From NCBI GenBank assembly GCA_018436095.1, contig JAHDMJ010000003.1:62001-126000 (forward strand): a stretch of 64,000 nucleotides of DNA, written 5' to 3'. This document shows, one piece after another, positions 7,292 through 55,366 of the stretch. How positions within the stretch are numbered: the stretch's first letter is position 1; each line of letters begins with the position of its first letter. A program made the position numbers and the translations under genes. The DNA comes from Clostridia bacterium (GTDB taxonomy: Bacteria > Bacillota > Peptococcia > DRI-13 > UBA5745). The notes under the pieces are model-generated. The model was not told the origin of the DNA. It saw only the letters and a list, made by a program, of their open reading frames with translations, and made no database searches.

Positions 7292-9193
7292 ATGATGAAA
7301 AGTGAACCCGTCAAGCCGGCAACCAACAGGAGAACACCGGCAGGATTTCTTGGCAAGGCTGTCAGCCTGCTGATGATCGCCGGCTCCCTCTTTCATATTT
7401 ATACCGGCGGCTTCGGTTTATTATCCACCATGTCTCAACGGTCCCTGCATCTTCTGTTTATGCTGGTTCCTGCCATCTTCTTGTATGGCGCAGCCCAGAA
7501 GGAATATAAGAAAATACCCTGGTACGATATCCTGCTGGGCAGTTTGGTGCTGGCGGCCTGCCTCTATCTCTTTTTCACCTGGCCCCGGCAAACCATGCGG
7601 GTAGGAGACCCCGGCATGCTGGATCTGTTCTTTGGAGCTGTACTGATTTTGGCGGTTTTGGAAGGAGCCAGGCGTACTGCCGGCAATGCTTTGGCAGGCA
7701 TTGCAACCCTGATGGTGCTGTATTGCTACTTTGGCAAATATCTGCCGGGAGGCCTGGCCCACCGGGGCTATAGCGTTACCCGGATCATTTCCTTCTTTTC
7801 TTCCACTGCCGAAGGGATCTTCGGCGTTCCCCTGGGGGTTTCGGCTTCCCTGATCGTCTTGTTCGTTGTCTTTGGCAGCGTATTAAACGCCACCGGCGGC
7901 GGCCAGTTTTTCATTGACGCCACCTATTCGATAGCCGGCAAATACAGGGGCGGTACCGCTAAAACCGGTGTTGTGGCCAGCGCCTTAATGGGTATGATCT
8001 CCGGCTCCCCTATCGCTAACGTGGTGACCACAGGCACCTTCACCATCCCGCTGATGAAACGGGGAGGTTTTTCACCCAATCTATCCTCGGCTATCTGTGC
8101 TATCGCCTCTGCCGGCGGCATATTGATGCCTCCGGTGATGGGCGCCGCCGCTTTTATCATGGCGGAGTATCTGTCCATGAGCTACGGTCAGGTAGTGCTG
8201 GCGGCTATCATTCCCTCGGTGTTGTTTTATCTTTCCATCTTCGTTATCGTGGACCTGGAGGCGGTGAAGCAGGGGCTGGTGGGAGAGGAGAAGTCCGCCC
8301 TGCCGGTTTTGAGCAAGGTAATGGCTTCCGGCTGGCATTTGCTGATTCCCATCATAGCCCTGGTTACTTTCCTGATGATGAAATGGTCTGCATCGAAGGC
8401 TGTATTTTGGTCCATTGCCTTGCTGGTGATAGTATCTACTTTCAAGAAGGCAACCCGTCTGAACAAGGATAAGGTGATCAAAACCCTGCTGGACGGCGCC
8501 AAGGAGTCCATTCCCATCGCCGTGGCCTGCGCCACTGCCGGGTTGATCGTAGGCACTCTGGCTCTTACCGGCCTTGGTGTGAAATTTTCCAGCTCCGTCA
8601 TTGCCTTATCCGGCGGTTCAAAGATGTTGGGCCTGATTATGGCCATGCTGGCCAGCCTGGTTTTGGGCATGGGTATGCCTGCCACTGCCGTGTATATCCT
8701 TTCCGCCTCTTTGCTGGCGCCGCCCTTGATCAAGCTGGGCATTGCCCCCATCTCCGCCCATTTCTTCATCTTCTATTTCAGCGTCATCAGCTGCATCACG
8801 CCGCCGGTGGCCCTGACGGCCTATGCCGCCGCCGGCCTGGCAGGCACCGATCCCAATAAAGCGGGCTGGACGGCTTTTTATTACGGCATACTGGCCTATA
8901 TCATTCCTTATATCTTTGTCTATGATCCTGTTTTGCTGTGGCAGGGAAGTCCCTTATCCATCTTCCTGGCTTTCATCACGGCCTTCATAGGAATATTCGG
9001 TATAGGCATTGCCTTGGAAGGGTATGTGGACCGCCACATTAGCATTGTCCAACGGTTAATTTTCTTTGCCGGCGGTATTATGGCTCTGATACCCCACTTG
9101 CTGCTCAGCATAGCAGGTATCGCTATGATGGTCATACTGTATGTTTCTCTGAGAAAGGGAGGCAAACAAGTAAATAAGCAAGTCAGCCAATAG
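7292..9193 (+). CDS. TRAP transporter fused permease (DctQM type)
   Basis: Membrane component (633 aa) that drives sodium- or proton-coupled uptake of the substrate delivered by the TAXI receptor. The small (DctQ) and large (DctM) subunits are fused, as is usual in TAXI systems: about four N-terminal helices (residues 15-115), then the DctM domain. Diagnostic stretches are GGGQFFIDATYSIAG, GMISGSPIANVVTTG, PPVMGAAAFIMAEYL, LGMGMPATAVYI and SCITPPVALTAYAAAG. Two adjacent ATGs (7292, 7295) follow GGAGAG. A strong terminator follows at 9229, closing the operon that begins at 2453. Confidence 0.95.
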   Translation: MMKSEPVKPATNRRTPAGFLGKAVSLLMIAGSLFHIYTGGFGLLSTMSQRSLHLLFMLVPAIFLYGAAQKEYKKIPWYDILLGSLVLAACLYLFFTWPRQTMRVGDPGMLDLFFGAVLILAVLEGARRTAGNALAGIATLMVLYCYFGKYLPGGLAHRGYSVTRIISFFSSTAEGIFGVPLGVSASLIVLFVVFGSVLNATGGGQFFIDATYSIAGKYRGGTAKTGVVASALMGMISGSPIANVVTTGTFTIPLMKRGGFSPNLSSAICAIASAGGILMPPVMGAAAFIMAEYLSMSYGQVVLAAIIPSVLFYLSIFVIVDLEAVKQGLVGEEKSALPVLSKVMASGWHLLIPIIALVTFLMMKWSASKAVFWSIALLVIVSTFKKATRLNKDKVIKTLLDGAKESIPIAVACATAGLIVGTLALTGLGVKFSSSVIALSGGSKMLGLIMAMLASLVLGMGMPATAVYILSASLLAPPLIKLGIAPISAHFFIFYFSVISCITPPVALTAYAAAGLAGTDPNKAGWTAFYYGILAYIIPYIFVYDPVLLWQGSPLSIFLAFITAFIGIFGIGIALEGYVDRHISIVQRLIFFAGGIMALIPHLLLSIAGIAMMVILYVSLRKGGKQVNKQVSQ

Positions 9194-9228
9194 TAAACAA
9201 TCTGAGAATACTGCTGGAGGTAATTTGA

Positions 9229-9290
9229 AAAAAGGCTAGGTCAGCTACAGCGAACATGCGAAGCGTGAGCGTAGCTGACCTAGCCTTTTT
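9229..9290 (+). terminator. Strong terminator with a 20-bp perfect stem
   Basis: AAAAAGGCTAGGTCAGCTAC (9229-9248) is perfectly complementary to 9271-9290, which ends in TTTTT. The A/T ends make it usable in both directions. The 22-base loop is unusually long and holds two GCGAA/GCGTGAGC-like strings. Confidence 0.9.
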
Positions 9291-9305
9291 ATGTTTTGCG
9301 GTTGA

Positions 9306-9334
9306 TTGCCAAAGATCGAATGTAGTTGTATAAT
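9306..9334 (+). promoter_or_regulatory. Sigma-A promoter for the ArsC/Spx-like gene
   Basis: TTGCCA (9306-9311), 17-base spacer, TATAAT (9329-9334). Predicted transcription starts about 65 bases before the start codon at 9407. Confidence 0.7.
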
Positions 9335-9406
9335 CTAAGGCAGTATATACAAATATTAAATAAATGCTGTTTAAGCATTAGGTCAACTATAGCAAGGAGG
9401 ATTTTT

Positions 9407-9757
9407 ATGCTGTTTATTTGCTACCCAAAATGCGGCACCTGCCAAAAGGCCAGAAAATGGCTGGATGAAAATAAAATTGCTTACGATAGCAGAGATATCA
9501 AAGAGCAGCGGCCGGCTTTGGAGGAGTTGCGGGACTGGTATAAGAAAAGCGGCTTGCCCCTAAAAAAGTTTTTTAATACCAGCGGCCAGCTCTATAAAGA
9601 AATGGCCTTGAAGGATAAGCTGCCGGCCATGAGTGAAGAGGAGCAATTGAAGCTGTTGGCCGGAGACGGCATGCTGGTTAAAAGGCCTTTGGCGGTGACC
9701 GGTTCCAAAGTACTGGTGGGATTCCGCCAGGAAGAATGGGAAGAGCTACTAAAATGA
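9407..9757 (+). CDS. ArsC/Spx/YffB-family thioredoxin-fold protein
   Basis: 116-aa member of the ArsC/Spx superfamily. The N-terminus MLFICYPKCGTCQKARKWL carries a CxxC redox motif at residues 10-13. The C-terminal half (GMLVKRPLAVTGSKVLVGF) has the RP loop of this superfamily. It is closest to the YffB/YusI branch, whose substrate is unknown. It may be a thiol-dependent reductase or a Spx-like regulator. The start at ATG 9407 follows AAGGAGG. There is no ars operon around it, so arsenate reduction is not supported. The stop overlaps the next start as ATGA, indicating coupling. Confidence 0.88.
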   Translation: MLFICYPKCGTCQKARKWLDENKIAYDSRDIKEQRPALEELRDWYKKSGLPLKKFFNTSGQLYKEMALKDKLPAMSEEEQLKLLAGDGMLVKRPLAVTGSKVLVGFRQEEWEELLK

Positions 9758-10473
9758 GGGGCCCCCTAAAGCATGATGACATGGGTTATTTGTACCGCCG
9801 CCGGCTGGTTAGCATTCTATCGTTGCTGGCCTTGCTGGCCTTTTTTTTGCTGATTACCCTGACCATCGGCCGTCAACTGCTGCAGTTTATCGGTGAGCCG
9901 GAGCGTTTCCAAATCTGGGTGGAGCAAAAAGGCTGGCTGGGCCGGTTGATCATGATCGGCATTATGTTCTTCCAAGTGGTCATCGCCATTATTCCCGGAG
10001 AGCTGATAGAAATTGCTGCCGGCTACGCCTTTGGCGCCGTTGAAGGGATGGTTCTCTGTTTGGCCGGCGTAGCTTTGGGCTCGGTGGTGGTTTTTGCCTT
10101 TACGAGAAGATTCGGCATAAAACTGGTGGAGGCTTTTATCAGCCGGGAAAGAATTAATTCTTTGAGCTTCATCAAAAACGAAAAACGGCTGAATAACCTG
10201 CTGTTCCTTTTGTTTTTTATCCCCGGCACCCCTAAAGATGTGCTGACGTATTTTGTTGGCCTGACGCCTATCAAGCTGGCGGATTTTCTGATCCTCACCT
10301 CTATTGCCCGGATTCCTTCAGTGATCACCTCGACGGCAGGGGGAGCAGCTTTAGGTACGGAGAATATTCCTATGGCCCTGACGGTTTTTGGAGTTACCGG
10401 GGCCATCAGCGGCGCCGGTCTGCTGGCCTATCAAAAGATCACCCGACGAAGACGTCATCACGATAAAAGATAA
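9754..10473 (+). CDS. TVP38/TMEM64 (VTT-domain) membrane protein
   Basis: Integral membrane protein of about 239 aa, related to TVP38/TMEM64 and DedA proteins, which are linked to lipid scrambling or membrane homeostasis. It has an N-terminal helix (about residues 25-50), then the VTT core with GELIEIAAGYAFGAVEG and FFIPGTPKDVLTYFVGLTPI, the motif that defines the family. ATG 9754 overlaps the previous stop; ATG 9781 is an alternative start. The physiological role is unknown here. Confidence 0.88.
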   Translation: MRGPLKHDDMGYLYRRRLVSILSLLALLAFFLLITLTIGRQLLQFIGEPERFQIWVEQKGWLGRLIMIGIMFFQVVIAIIPGELIEIAAGYAFGAVEGMVLCLAGVALGSVVVFAFTRRFGIKLVEAFISRERINSLSFIKNEKRLNNLLFLLFFIPGTPKDVLTYFVGLTPIKLADFLILTSIARIPSVITSTAGGAALGTENIPMALTVFGVTGAISGAGLLAYQKITRRRRHHDKR

Positions 10474-50382: not shown

Positions 50383-50693
50383 TGCTCAATTTTGCAGGTT
50401 TGTAGGGACCCCCGGGAGTCAAGACTGGAGAAAAATAAGCAAAATAGCAGGTTTAAAGTATCTCGAACAACCTCTCATGAGGCTGAACACTACTTTTGGC
50501 TGTATTAAGTATCGTATTCGGAATAAGTGCCCTGTATAGGTATTTCAATCCTGCTTATACACTAAATGTAGGCAAAGGACGGTACTCAGGGCGGCAAAAC
50601 TTGAAATTCCGAGCAGTTAGCTGAGGCAAATAGACATAATACCTCGTTTTTTGTACACTCGGCTGGATAGGAAGCGACTTTTTCAGTGCCCTC
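50383..50693. repeat. Composite intergenic repeat, locus B
   Basis: Modules: CTCAATTTTGCAGGTTTGT (50385-50403) and a degenerate copy at 50436-50458; CTGTATTAAGTATCG near 50500; an inverted copy (50593-50629) of the 37-base block found directly at 54653-54689; CCTCGTTTTTTGTACA (50642-50657); and AAGCGACTTTTTCAGTGCCC (50672-50691). The 50155-50864 gap holds only a terminator and these modules. TTGACA at 50761 has no matching -10 at normal spacing. Confidence 0.75.
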
Positions 50694-50864: not shown

Positions 50865-51761
50865 ATGTTTAAAAAAGTAATGGTAATACTTCTGGCCGTG
50901 CTGCTAGCAGCGTCGATTCTCGCAGGCTGCGGCAATAGGGGGGCGGAGGGTCTTTCAGAAGATGGAGCAAAAGGAACGGTCAAGCTTGGTTATGTCAACT
51001 GGGTAGATGTTATTGCCCTAACTAATGTGGCAACAATCATTCTGGAAGATACCATGGGTTATCAAGTGGAAAGCACACTGGCTGATTTGGCCCCTATTTA
51101 CACCTCCATTGCATCAGGTTCCACAGATGCCTATTTAGGTACCTGGCTGCCCTTGACCCACGCTGTTCATATGGAGAAATACGGCGATGACTTGGAAATC
51201 CTGGGGACTGTTTACGAAGAAGGGGTCCAGGGGCTTGCCGTACCGGCCTATATGGACATCAATAGCATAGAAGAGCTTGTGGGCAATGAAGCCCTTGTAG
51301 ATAATAGAATCGTTGGTGTTGACCCGGGAGCGGGCATCATGAAAGCTGCTGAAGAGGCGATTGAAGAATACGGCCTGGACTTAAAATTGATTAACGGTTC
51401 CGATCCAACTATGACCGCTGCCCTGAGCAAGGCCATTGCAGCAGAGGAACCCATTGTCATAACGGGCTGGAAGCCCCATTGGAAGTTTACCCGATACGAT
51501 TTGAAGCTTCTTGAAGATCCGAAATTATGCTTTGGTGAAGAAGAGAAAGCTTATAATATCGCCAGGCTGGGCCTTTCGGAAGATATGCCGGAGGTAGCGG
51601 AATTCTTGCGCAATATGTATCTTTCAATTGATCAGGTACAAGAAATCATTTACATGATGGAAACCAGCGATGCAGATGACAAAGAGGTATGCAGAGGGTG
51701 GATTTCACAAAATATTGAGGTGGTCAATTCCTGGCTGCCTGAAGGCTATACAGTGCAGTAA
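50865..51761 (+). CDS. Glycine betaine/proline-type ABC transporter substrate-binding lipoprotein, orphan
   Basis: 298-aa receptor of the OpuAC family, which captures glycine betaine, choline or related quaternary amines for ABC uptake. The signal peptide ends in lipobox ILAGC (Cys23). The domain shows VKLGYVNWVDVIALTNVA, GSTDAYLGTWLPLTHAVH, VGVDPGAGIMKAAEEAIEEYGL and ITGWKPHWKFTRYDLKLLEDP, including the aromatic Trp residues that form the cation-binding cage. The ATG follows AAGGAGG. No ATPase or permease gene is nearby, so it must serve a transporter encoded elsewhere or be a stand-alone receptor. Confidence 0.95.
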   Translation: MFKKVMVILLAVLLAASILAGCGNRGAEGLSEDGAKGTVKLGYVNWVDVIALTNVATIILEDTMGYQVESTLADLAPIYTSIASGSTDAYLGTWLPLTHAVHMEKYGDDLEILGTVYEEGVQGLAVPAYMDINSIEELVGNEALVDNRIVGVDPGAGIMKAAEEAIEEYGLDLKLINGSDPTMTAALSKAIAAEEPIVITGWKPHWKFTRYDLKLLEDPKLCFGEEEKAYNIARLGLSEDMPEVAEFLRNMYLSIDQVQEIIYMMETSDADDKEVCRGWISQNIEVVNSWLPEGYTVQ

Positions 51762-52245: not shown

Positions 52246-53625
52246 ATGATAAAAAATTACGTTCTTGATACAAATGTTTTAATACAATCACCCCAAGCAC
52301 TAAATTGCTTCGAAGATAACAACATTATTTTACCTCTTGCAGTTTTGGAAGAATTGGACAGCTTGAAAAATGCCGACGGCGAAAGAGGGGCTAATGTCAG
52401 GCAGGTAATCCGCTGCTTGGAGAACTTGCGCCTGAAGGGAAATTTGCTGGAGGGAGTTACCCTGCCTTCCGACGGTTTATTGAGGTTGGAGCTGAATTAT
52501 AAAAGTGTCGAAATACATCCAAGCTTTACCTCGGAAAAGAATGATGACCGTATCCTGCGTATGTGCCTTGGTCTTAAATCCGATGGGATAAAGCCGATTT
52601 TAGTGACGAAAGATATTGTAATCCGGCTTAAAGCACAGGCTTTAGACATAGATTCAGAGGATTTTATAACGGAACGGGTATCACCTGAAACGGACCAGTA
52701 TACAGGCCGCCTTGAGGTATACGCAGCTGATGAACATTTCAGCGGATTGAAAAAGAAAGGGATACCCCTTGAGTCCTTATATATACAGGATGAAAGCGGT
52801 GAGCATCAGCCTATTAATTTATTCGAAAACCAGTTTGTAACGGTGCATTCCGAATTATCAAACAAAAAAACGATACTGGCCAGAGTTAATGGCTCATTGG
52901 CCGTACCTCTTAAATTTCTGGACGAAAGACCTTTCTCTGTAAAAGCAAGAAATGCGGGACAGCGCTTTTTACAGGAAGCTTTAATGAAAAGTGCGGACAA
53001 GATACCCCTGGTCATTATAAAAGGAACTGCCGGTACGGCTAAAACTTTTTATTCCCTCGCGGTAGGACTCCACTTTATGATTGAGTCGAAAGAGAAGCCC
53101 TACCGAAGGATCCTTATAACAAGGCCTAATACTCAATTTGATGACGAAATTGGCTATTTACCAGGCTCAGAGCTGGAGAAGATCGCCCCTTTGATGCGTC
53201 CTATTATCGATAATCTTGAGATTTTGGTGGATAGAGATGAAAAACAGCGTTATGAAAATGAAAGTGAGCTTCGCGATAAGGTTGACGAACTGTTTAAAAG
53301 AGGTTATATCGCTGCGGAAGCGATGAATTTTATCAGAGGCAGGTCGATAACGCAAACCTATTTAATTATTGACGAGGCACAGAACCTGACTCCCCGCCAG
53401 GCCAAAGGCATTATAACCCGGGCGGGAAAAGGCACAAAGATCATTATGCTGGGGGATATTAACCAAATCGATCACCCTCTTTTAGACGACAGGACAAACG
53501 GTTTGAGCTATGCTTCCGAGAAAATGAAGGGGAGTCCCTTATGCTGCCAAATCACTATGCTGGCAGAGGAATGCGAGCGGTCTGAATTAGCATTTGATGC
53601 GGCAGTCAGGATGGGAATACGATAA
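52246..53625 (+). CDS. PIN-domain/PhoH fusion ATPase (YlaK-like)
   Basis: 459-aa protein. Residues 1-140 form a PIN nuclease domain with acidic residues in LDTNVLIQSP, EELD and NDDRILRM. Residues about 245-459 form the PhoH ATPase with Walker A GTAGTAKT, PNTQFDDEIGYLPG, Walker B LIIDEAQN and GDINQIDHPLL. PIN-PhoH proteins are predicted RNA helicase-nucleases. The ATG follows AGGTGATTAA. It is 22 bases upstream of the chimeric Ppx gene and probably cotranscribed. Confidence 0.93.
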   Translation: MIKNYVLDTNVLIQSPQALNCFEDNNIILPLAVLEELDSLKNADGERGANVRQVIRCLENLRLKGNLLEGVTLPSDGLLRLELNYKSVEIHPSFTSEKNDDRILRMCLGLKSDGIKPILVTKDIVIRLKAQALDIDSEDFITERVSPETDQYTGRLEVYAADEHFSGLKKKGIPLESLYIQDESGEHQPINLFENQFVTVHSELSNKKTILARVNGSLAVPLKFLDERPFSVKARNAGQRFLQEALMKSADKIPLVIIKGTAGTAKTFYSLAVGLHFMIESKEKPYRRILITRPNTQFDDEIGYLPGSELEKIAPLMRPIIDNLEILVDRDEKQRYENESELRDKVDELFKRGYIAAEAMNFIRGRSITQTYLIIDEAQNLTPRQAKGIITRAGKGTKIIMLGDINQIDHPLLDDRTNGLSYASEKMKGSPLCCQITMLAEECERSELAFDAAVRMGIR

Positions 53626-53647
53626 TTTTGAAAGGAACTTATTCGGC

Positions 53648-54727
53648 ATGTGCTATGCAATTATTGACTTGGGTTCAAATACCATACGCCTTTGCGTCTA
53701 CGATTACGCCGACGGGGTGATAAATACCATTGTTAATCAAAAGGAAACCGGGGGCTTGGCCGGATATGTTACCTCCGGTATTCTCAGTCAAGATGGAATA
53801 GAAAAAGCCTGCGAGATATTAAACGCTCATATCGCTTTGGCCAAAAAGCTGGTAGATAAATCAAATATTCATATTTTAGCTACGGCTTCCCTGAGAAACA
53901 TTGATAACCGGGAGGAGGCAGCAGAGGCAATTTACCGTAAAACCGAAATGCTGCCGGAGGTTTTGACAGGTGAAGAGGAAGCTTTATTGGATTTTATAGG
54001 GGCTTCTTATCATATCAATTATCAAAGGGGTCTTCTTATTAATATTGGTGGAGCCAGCACGGAGCTTGTATTATTTGACAATCACGAGCCTGTGGCTCTG
54101 GCCAGTATGCCCGTCGGTTGCTTAACTCTTTATCGGAAGTATGTGGACAATATTTTTCCCAGCCAAGAAGAAGAAAAACAGATAAAGAAGGAAGTGCTGC
54201 GCTTTTTGCAAGAAACAAATCTGCAAAAGGGTGAAGTTGGCAGCATTATTATTAAATGCAACTCATTGACTGATCTGAATATCATTGAGAAATTGATAGA
54301 AGCTTCCCGTTCCGGTGTAAAAGTAACGATGATTATCAGAGGTATTTGCTGCCTTATTCCCCAGGTCAAAAATTATACCGAGAACATTAAAGTAATAAGT
54401 ATAATCGGTAGATTTCTGGAACATTCGAGGGTGTTCTGCTTTGGGACAGGCCCTGAAATGGAAGTGTTTATTTCTTCGGCAGATTTAATGACCCGCAATA
54501 CGGAGCGCCGGGTAGAGGTTGCCTGCCCTATATATGATCCTGAGCTAAAAGCCAAAACCCACAAAATTCTTGAATATTTGATGGAAGATAACACGAAAGC
54601 TTGGGAGCTGCTTTCCAGCGGAGAATATAACTGCGCCGAGATATTATGTGTATTGCCTCAGCTAACTGCCCGGAATTTCAAGTTTTACCGCACCGAGCAC
54701 CACCTTTTGCCTGTATTTAGTGTCTAA
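53648..54727 (+). CDS. Chimera: Ppx/GppA phosphatase N-terminus fused to polyphosphate kinase 1 C-terminus
   Basis: 359-aa frame in two unrelated parts. Residues 1 to about 195 are the Ppx/GppA exopolyphosphatase fold: AIIDLGSNTIRL, ATASLRNIDN, LTGEEEALLDFIGA, LINIGGASTELVLF. From about residue 199 (nt about 54240) the sequence changes to the C-terminal PPK1 domain: IIKCNSLTDLNIIEKLIEAS, IIRGICCLIP, ISIIGRFLEHSR, FISSADLMTRNTERRVEV. PPK1's catalytic histidines lie upstream of this point and are missing; the C-terminal half of Ppx is missing too. From about residue 336 the frame enters an intergenic repeat that supplies the stop. An internal deletion joining neighbouring ppx and ppk genes explains all this. 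Activity is unlikely. Confidence 0.88.
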   Translation: MCYAIIDLGSNTIRLCVYDYADGVINTIVNQKETGGLAGYVTSGILSQDGIEKACEILNAHIALAKKLVDKSNIHILATASLRNIDNREEAAEAIYRKTEMLPEVLTGEEEALLDFIGASYHINYQRGLLINIGGASTELVLFDNHEPVALASMPVGCLTLYRKYVDNIFPSQEEEKQIKKEVLRFLQETNLQKGEVGSIIIKCNSLTDLNIIEKLIEASRSGVKVTMIIRGICCLIPQVKNYTENIKVISIIGRFLEHSRVFCFGTGPEMEVFISSADLMTRNTERRVEVACPIYDPELKAKTHKILEYLMEDNTKAWELLSSGEYNCAEILCVLPQLTARNFKFYRTEHHLLPVFSV

Positions 54728-54900
54728 GGTGGATGAAATGCCTATTTTACCAGAGCGAACCACAGAATACTTCAAATTTTGTACACCTGGCTGAGACTGA
54801 GGCGACTTTTTCAGTGCCCTCCTATAAACCTGCATTTTTGTGCAATTGGCGCCCTTACTGGATACAAACCTGCATTTTTGCACTGAGCGGACAAAACCTG
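54653..54900. repeat. Composite intergenic repeat, locus C
   Basis: Modules in the same order as locus A: the 37-base block 54653-54689 (35 of 37 bases match the inverted copy at 50593-50629), CTGTATTTAGTGTCTAAGG (54711-54729), TTCAAATTTTGTACA (54771-54785), GGCGACTTTTTCAGTGCCCT (54801-54820), then AAACCTGCATTTTTGTGCA at 54826 and AAACCTGCATTTTTGCAC at 54866, exactly 40 bases apart, and a partial copy at 54894. The first module overlaps the end of the chimeric gene. The 54728-55283 gap holds these repeats and the tRNA-derived units. Confidence 0.78.
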
Positions 54901-55009: not shown

Positions 55010-55304
55010 GTTCAAGTCCCTTTCCTTAGCCAAGACCATAAAAGAAAAACCACCCCTTGTAAAAGGAGTGGTGATTTTTCTTTAATGCCGGCGAAGGGAC
55101 TTGCGCCGCTCGCCTGATCCTGGAAGCAAGGCCTGGCAGCTCGCTATCACGCCAGGGCGGGCAAGCCCTCCCCATAGGTCGGCCTTGCTATTTCCTAAGT
55201 CCGCCCGTTCAAGTCCCTTCCTAAGCACAGAGAAAAAAGAAATGGGAAGAGAACTTTTTAGCTCTCTCCCCATTTCTTTTTAATGCCGGCGAAGGGACTT
55301 GAAC
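55010..55304. repeat. Tandem units bounded by inverted copies of the tRNA-Leu T-arm
   Basis: Two related units: 55010-55103 and 55207-55304. Each begins GTTCAAGTCCCTT and ends with (AAT)GCCGGCGAAGGGACTTG, which is the reverse complement of the first string plus the tRNA 3' end, and each encloses a terminator hairpin (55045-55079; 55233-55280). The right end of the second unit is the real tRNA-Leu 3' end. Between the units is a 103-base segment with its own stem GCAAGGCC/GGCCTTGC (55126-55133 with 55181-55188). They look like duplicated attachment-site or tRNA-end fragments. Confidence 0.65.
55231..55283 (-). terminator. Terminator downstream of tRNA-Leu
   Basis: On the minus strand AAAAAGAAATGGG pairs with CCCATTTCTTTTTT around an inner GAGAG/CTCTT stem; a T run follows. 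It begins immediately after the tRNA 3' end. A second, unrelated hairpin at 55045-55079 (ACCACCCCTT/AAGGAGTGGT) follows the duplicated tRNA end. Confidence 0.8.
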
Positions 55305-55366
55305 CCCCACATAGTTGCCTATGGTAGATTTTGAGTCTACTGCGTCTGCCATTCCGCCACGCCGGC
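55284..55366 (-). tRNA. tRNA-Leu (anticodon CAA)
   Basis: 83-base tRNA on the minus strand. Acceptor GCCGGCG pairs with CGCCGGC, with discriminator A. The D-arm follows (GCGGAATGGCAGACGC). Anticodon stem GTAGA/TCTAC holds loop CTCAAAA, giving anticodon CAA. A long variable arm is present (as in class II leucine tRNAs), then T-arm GGGGGTTCAAGTCCCTT. CCA is not encoded. The gene is preceded by a bidirectional terminator (55394-55439). Confidence 0.95.

Follow-up and report, generated by a model that had tools for sequence, protein, structure and literature searches.

A fused ppx-ppk1 reading frame in a Clostridia genome is very probably a deletion-derived pseudogene of an adjacent gene pair

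Introduction

Does an open reading frame that begins as an exopolyphosphatase (Ppx) and ends as a polyphosphate kinase 1 (PPK1) encode a new kind of protein, or is it what remains of two neighbouring genes? Such a frame lies in the window analysed here, a 64,000-nucleotide stretch of contig JAHDMJ010000003.1 from a Clostridia bacterium. A first-pass annotation made from the sequence alone had proposed that an internal deletion fused the two genes, and that the product, if expressed, would be a new polyphosphate-binding protein without either full activity. We follow both proposals here with profile searches, comparison with relatives and structure prediction.

Results

The fused frame and its parts

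The fusion lies 22 nt behind a phoH2-like gene, with which it probably shares a transcription unit.

52246..53625, + strand: phoH2-like gene (PIN + PhoH; Pfam PIN_4 and PhoH), 459 aa, directly upstream of the fusion
53648..54727, + strand: chimeric ppx'-'ppk1 open reading frame, 359 aa (ORF list, Pfam, NCBIfam)
53648..54208, + strand: Ppx part, covering roughly the first 187 of about 307 residues, gapless against Ppx residues 1-187 of a congener (G002) and containing the substitution D132N
54209..54226, + strand: deletion junction, given as its uncertainty interval (codons 187-193), from ungapped two-parent scoring against Ppx and PPK1 of G002
54227..54628, + strand: fragment of PPK1 C-terminal domain 2, corresponding to G002 PPK1 residues about 541-674, with His259 kept

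The frame is free of stops over its 359 codons, while 27 and 22 stops interrupt the two remaining frames of that strand, and codon usage is gene-like in the Ppx part and in the PPK1 part. The start region looks normal: the ATG at 53648 corresponds to the start of homologous Ppx proteins (MCYAIIDLGSNTIRL), and a ribosome-binding-like stretch, GAAAGGAA, stands just 5' of it. An alternative TTG start 54 nt upstream would give a frame of 377 codons (53594-54727) that reaches into the end of phoH2.

That a Ppx/GppA N-terminal half is joined in frame to the last domain of PPK1, as first proposed, is borne out by Pfam and NCBIfam alike, and the two-domain match is far beyond chance. On the Ppx side, the Pfam Ppx-GppA profile matches fusion residues 17-194 (E 2.4e-30, profile positions 2-180 of 285) and TIGR03706, the NCBIfam Ppx model, extends up to residue 196 (profile positions 2-196 of 300) with 144.3 bits against a cut-off of 307, so that the full two-domain Ppx described by TIGR03706 and PF02541 is not present. 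Residues 1 to about 187 share the DLGSNTIRL and GEEEA motifs and the IGGAST loop with the short form of Ppx/GppA (PF02541; TIGR03706 exo_poly_only; the Aquifex aeolicus-type Ppx, PDB 1t6c/2j4r), but much of domain II is missing, the fusion lacking the C-terminal 120 residues of the short form, including the GGT motif. It also differs from that form at a catalytic position, having Asn at residue 132, where all 30 of the aligned Ppx homologues have the Asp that, by alignment offset, is equivalent to D143 of the E. coli enzyme. E. coli Ppx is reported to need E121, D143 and E150 for its activity (PMC5417653).

The PPK1 side is similarly incomplete. Whereas PPK1 depends on N, middle and C1 domains, the last with its phospho-histidine, the match in the fusion starts near E. 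coli residue 520, and with the C1 domain the autophosphorylated His435 is absent. Pfam PP_kinase_C matches residues 190-329 (E 5.3e-56, profile positions 21-160 of 172); TIGR03705, the NCBIfam PPK1 model, begins at fusion residue 180 and covers only profile positions 503-655 of 673, its 195.9 bits falling well below the cut-off of 465.85, so that the fusion is not a member of a family defined by that cut-off and by N, middle, C1 and C2 domains together. What is retained is the C2 core that the fusion has in common with E. coli PPK (1xdo/1xdp; PF13090 C-terminal domain 2; TIGR03705), with LEHSR and SSADLMTRN; nearly every invariant residue of the fragment is kept as well. His259 within LEHSR is conserved in 18 of 18 sequences and aligns to chain position 591 of 1xdo, which is His592 counting Met1. 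The first-pass view that the PPK1 part has no catalytic histidines is thus correct for the C1 histidine, in the E. coli His435 region, but not for the C2 histidine. PPK1 carrying H435A/H592A serves as a catalytically impaired control (PMC6537752).

Origin of the junction

The congener G002 has just the arrangement that a deletion between neighbours calls for: ppx (L053 7207-8130, 307 aa) and ppk1 (8108-10288, 726 aa) lie on the same strand with a 23-nt overlap, each gene with complete Pfam domains. The fusion shares gene order, strand and the sequence of both halves with this pair, which provides the best matches in the class (52% identity for the Ppx part, 58-62% for the PPK1 part), and differs from it in that G002 has two full overlapping genes without a deletion. 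No phoH2 gene was found in the 17 kb around the G002 pair. Eleven more genomes of the phylum likewise have a separate full-length ppx followed by an adjacent full-length ppk1 on one strand, so the check for intact neighbours in relatives that the first-pass annotation had called for comes out in favour of its reading.

Along the fusion, gapless alignment to G002 Ppx (residues 1-187) gives way to G002 PPK1 from about residue 535-541. The junction, first put at about nt 54240, is real but is better placed slightly 5' of this, at about 54209-54226; as the stand-in for the ancestor is another species, with proteins about 51-62% identical and DNA too diverged to reveal microhomology, the breakpoints are placed to within about 18 nt. 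In G002 coordinates a single deletion of 1,942 bp gives the fusion, and it does so in frame because the two G002 genes are offset by one base and 1,942 is 1 mod 3.

The join could instead be an artefact of assembly, a mis-joined contig from an organism that has intact ppx and ppk1, and the genome is indeed a 38-contig draft. We consider this quite unlikely, since the assembly holds no other ppk1 fragment and the locus bears two other lesions, D132N and a PPK1 tail truncated by a repeat, which are independent of the join and yet fall in the same gene pair. The frame is moreover kept across the junction, and assembly collapse usually needs a repeat at both ends, whereas a search for repeats of at least 18 nt found none that pairs with the junction.

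A second lesion and dispersed repeats

Similarity to PPK1 ends at Tyr327 (nt 54628), and the C-terminal tail of the fusion, unlike that of PPK1, consists of repeat-coded residues. The end of the frame had been read as running into a repeat, and from nt 54637 it does.

54637..54821, + strand: 5'-truncated copy of a MITE-like repeat (terminal inverted repeats GAGGGCACTGAAAAAGTCGC), of whose about 234 bp the final 185 or so are left, encoding the last 28-29 codons of the frame and its stop
54822..54900, + strand: beginning of a second dispersed repeat, of which the genome has many copies, directly to the right of the MITE-like one

The MITE-like repeat occurs at some 15 other places in the genome, where full copies measure 233-235 bp and carry 20-bp terminal inverted repeats (GAGGGCACTGAAAAAGTCGC / GCGACTTTTTCAGTGCCCTC). 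Several copies stand between duplications of about 8-9 bp, such as GTGCAAAGT in L006 and GCGGCAAAG in L007, as read directly from their flanks; these are the signature of a transposed element. The copy at the end of the fusion is short of roughly its first 47 bases; with its left end missing and the PPK1 tail cut, both parts have been lost, and they presumably went together in one second deletion.

Other sites of this repeat lie at 50536-50646 of the window and in L002-L008. The second, shorter repeat has the unit TAYAAACCTGCATTTTTG, sometimes in tandem, and is found at 54822-54900 and at some 25 other places. At least two MITE-like copies (54637-54821 in the window, and that in L003) sit inside a CTAYAAACCTGCA-like motif of the second repeat, so that the repeats appear nested, the one inserted into the other.

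Distribution of the fusion and of polyphosphate kinases

Wide conservation of the fusion would have pointed to a real fused enzyme, but no other ppx-ppk1 fusion was found in the family (9 genomes), the order (25), the class (46) or the phylum sample (249). The close relatives within an 84,980-species contig collection gave no fused copy, nor did plasmids, on which the matches listed were separate ppx and ppk1 genes or were unannotated. A literature search on ppx-ppk fusions or ppk1 pseudogenes returned nothing relevant.

The organism's own genome (98.5% complete, 38 contigs), which the first-pass annotation had proposed to search for another ppk, contains no other PPK1 match or ppk1 piece and no PPK2. 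It does contain one further Ppx/GppA homologue, a distant one (26% identity) on contig C38. Within the order, PPK1 occurs in only 2 of the 25 genomes, the fusion remnant included; members of the group thus commonly lack polyphosphate kinase 1, and the fusion locus is one instance of its loss.

The surroundings of the locus leave room for another origin, in which the fusion was imported ready-made by horizontal transfer. The closest relative, G004, shares the downstream sigma/anti-sigma genes at 81% DNA identity, everything upstream of these differs, and at the corresponding place there is no tRNA-Leu, fusion or phoH2; because this upstream region is wholly different, G004 reveals no ancestral state. 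Among the family's eight other genomes, likewise, none gave a full-length PIN-PhoH counterpart, and matches were confined to the PhoH part. As G004 and most of the family have neither phoH2 nor the fusion, the segment may have been imported, or repeatedly lost elsewhere. Import of the fusion already formed is nevertheless highly improbable, the slimmest of the prospects weighed here: no fused homologue was found elsewhere, and the best class matches of both halves are the intact pair of a congener.

Two further observations concern the neighbourhood. The tRNA-Leu(caa) gene at 55284-55366 (minus strand) has its 3' end duplicated 198 bp away (55074-55103 versus 55272-55301, 93% over 30 nt), which resembles an attachment-site scar, and synteny with G004 breaks nearby. 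Two genes for OpuAC-type glycine-betaine binding proteins, about 53% identical, are present in the genome, one upstream of the fusion (window 50868-51761), the other close to the end of contig C5 (L097 463-1332).

Predicted structure and prospects for function

AlphaFold2 gave the fusion a mean pLDDT of 72.3 and a pTM of 0.64, from a 15-row alignment that has no homologous rows over residues 165-177 or the tail and so permits a limited reading. Ppx domain I is predicted confidently (block pLDDT 83-97, residues 1-120) and C2 moderately, and confidence is poor over residues 161-200 (average 41-62) and over the last 30 residues (29-36).

A retained, functional small chimera of Ppx domain I and PPK1 C2, for instance one with a regulatory role in binding polyphosphate or nucleotide, would be in keeping with the open frame, the plausible ribosome-binding site and the position 22 nt behind phoH2, with the well conserved C2 residues including His259, and with the confident predicted fold of domain I. 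We nonetheless regard it as very unlikely, given that the chimera is absent from all other sampled genomes of the class and phylum, that the catalytic Asp is changed, that the chimera lacks the PPK1 tail as well as a large part of domain II of Ppx, that junction and tail are poorly predicted, and that the genome has no polyphosphate kinase to supply substrate. More doubtful still is one specific form of this, an expressed and retained small regulatory protein that would use Ppx domain I and the C2 core to bind polyphosphate or nucleotide but not turn it over, the cell itself being without a polyphosphate kinase. The new fused polyphosphate-binding protein first envisaged is therefore disfavoured by D132N, by what is lost from domain II of Ppx and from the tail of PPK1, by low model confidence at junction and tail and by lack of conservation.

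Discussion

Our comparisons point to ordinary gene decay, not a new enzyme, and no new kind of protein is called for: the fusion is very probably a pseudogene derived by deletion from adjacent ppx and ppk1. The origin first proposed is well supported by G002, whose intact overlapping pair matches the arrangement supposed for the ancestor, and by the single 1,942-bp deletion that converts this pair into the fused frame. We suggest that the ancestor carried ppx and ppk1 with overlapping ends, 3' of phoH2, and that about 1.9 kb was then lost, taking away the part of ppx that codes for its C-terminal 40% and all but the last quarter of ppk1, with the frame restored by chance. A second rearrangement would have cut into a MITE-like repeat lying in or beside ppk1, removing the repeat's left end together with the 3' end of the gene, with the consequence that the frame now ends within that repeat.

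If this is decay, it is young, for the frame is open, its start normal, its codons gene-like and the invariant residues of C2 mostly kept. On our best reading, the deletion thus appears to have been fairly recent and to have occurred in a lineage from which polyphosphate kinase has disappeared. Any protein made from the frame would be expected to lack both exopolyphosphatase and polyphosphate kinase activity, and the fused frame is almost certainly a non-functional remnant that happens to be open.

The locus provides a clear case in which polyphosphate metabolism is lost through a deletion between neighbouring genes, in a group that retains these genes patchily. Annotation pipelines may label the fused frame as polyphosphate kinase or as exopolyphosphatase, and neither label warrants inferring polyphosphate metabolism in the organism.
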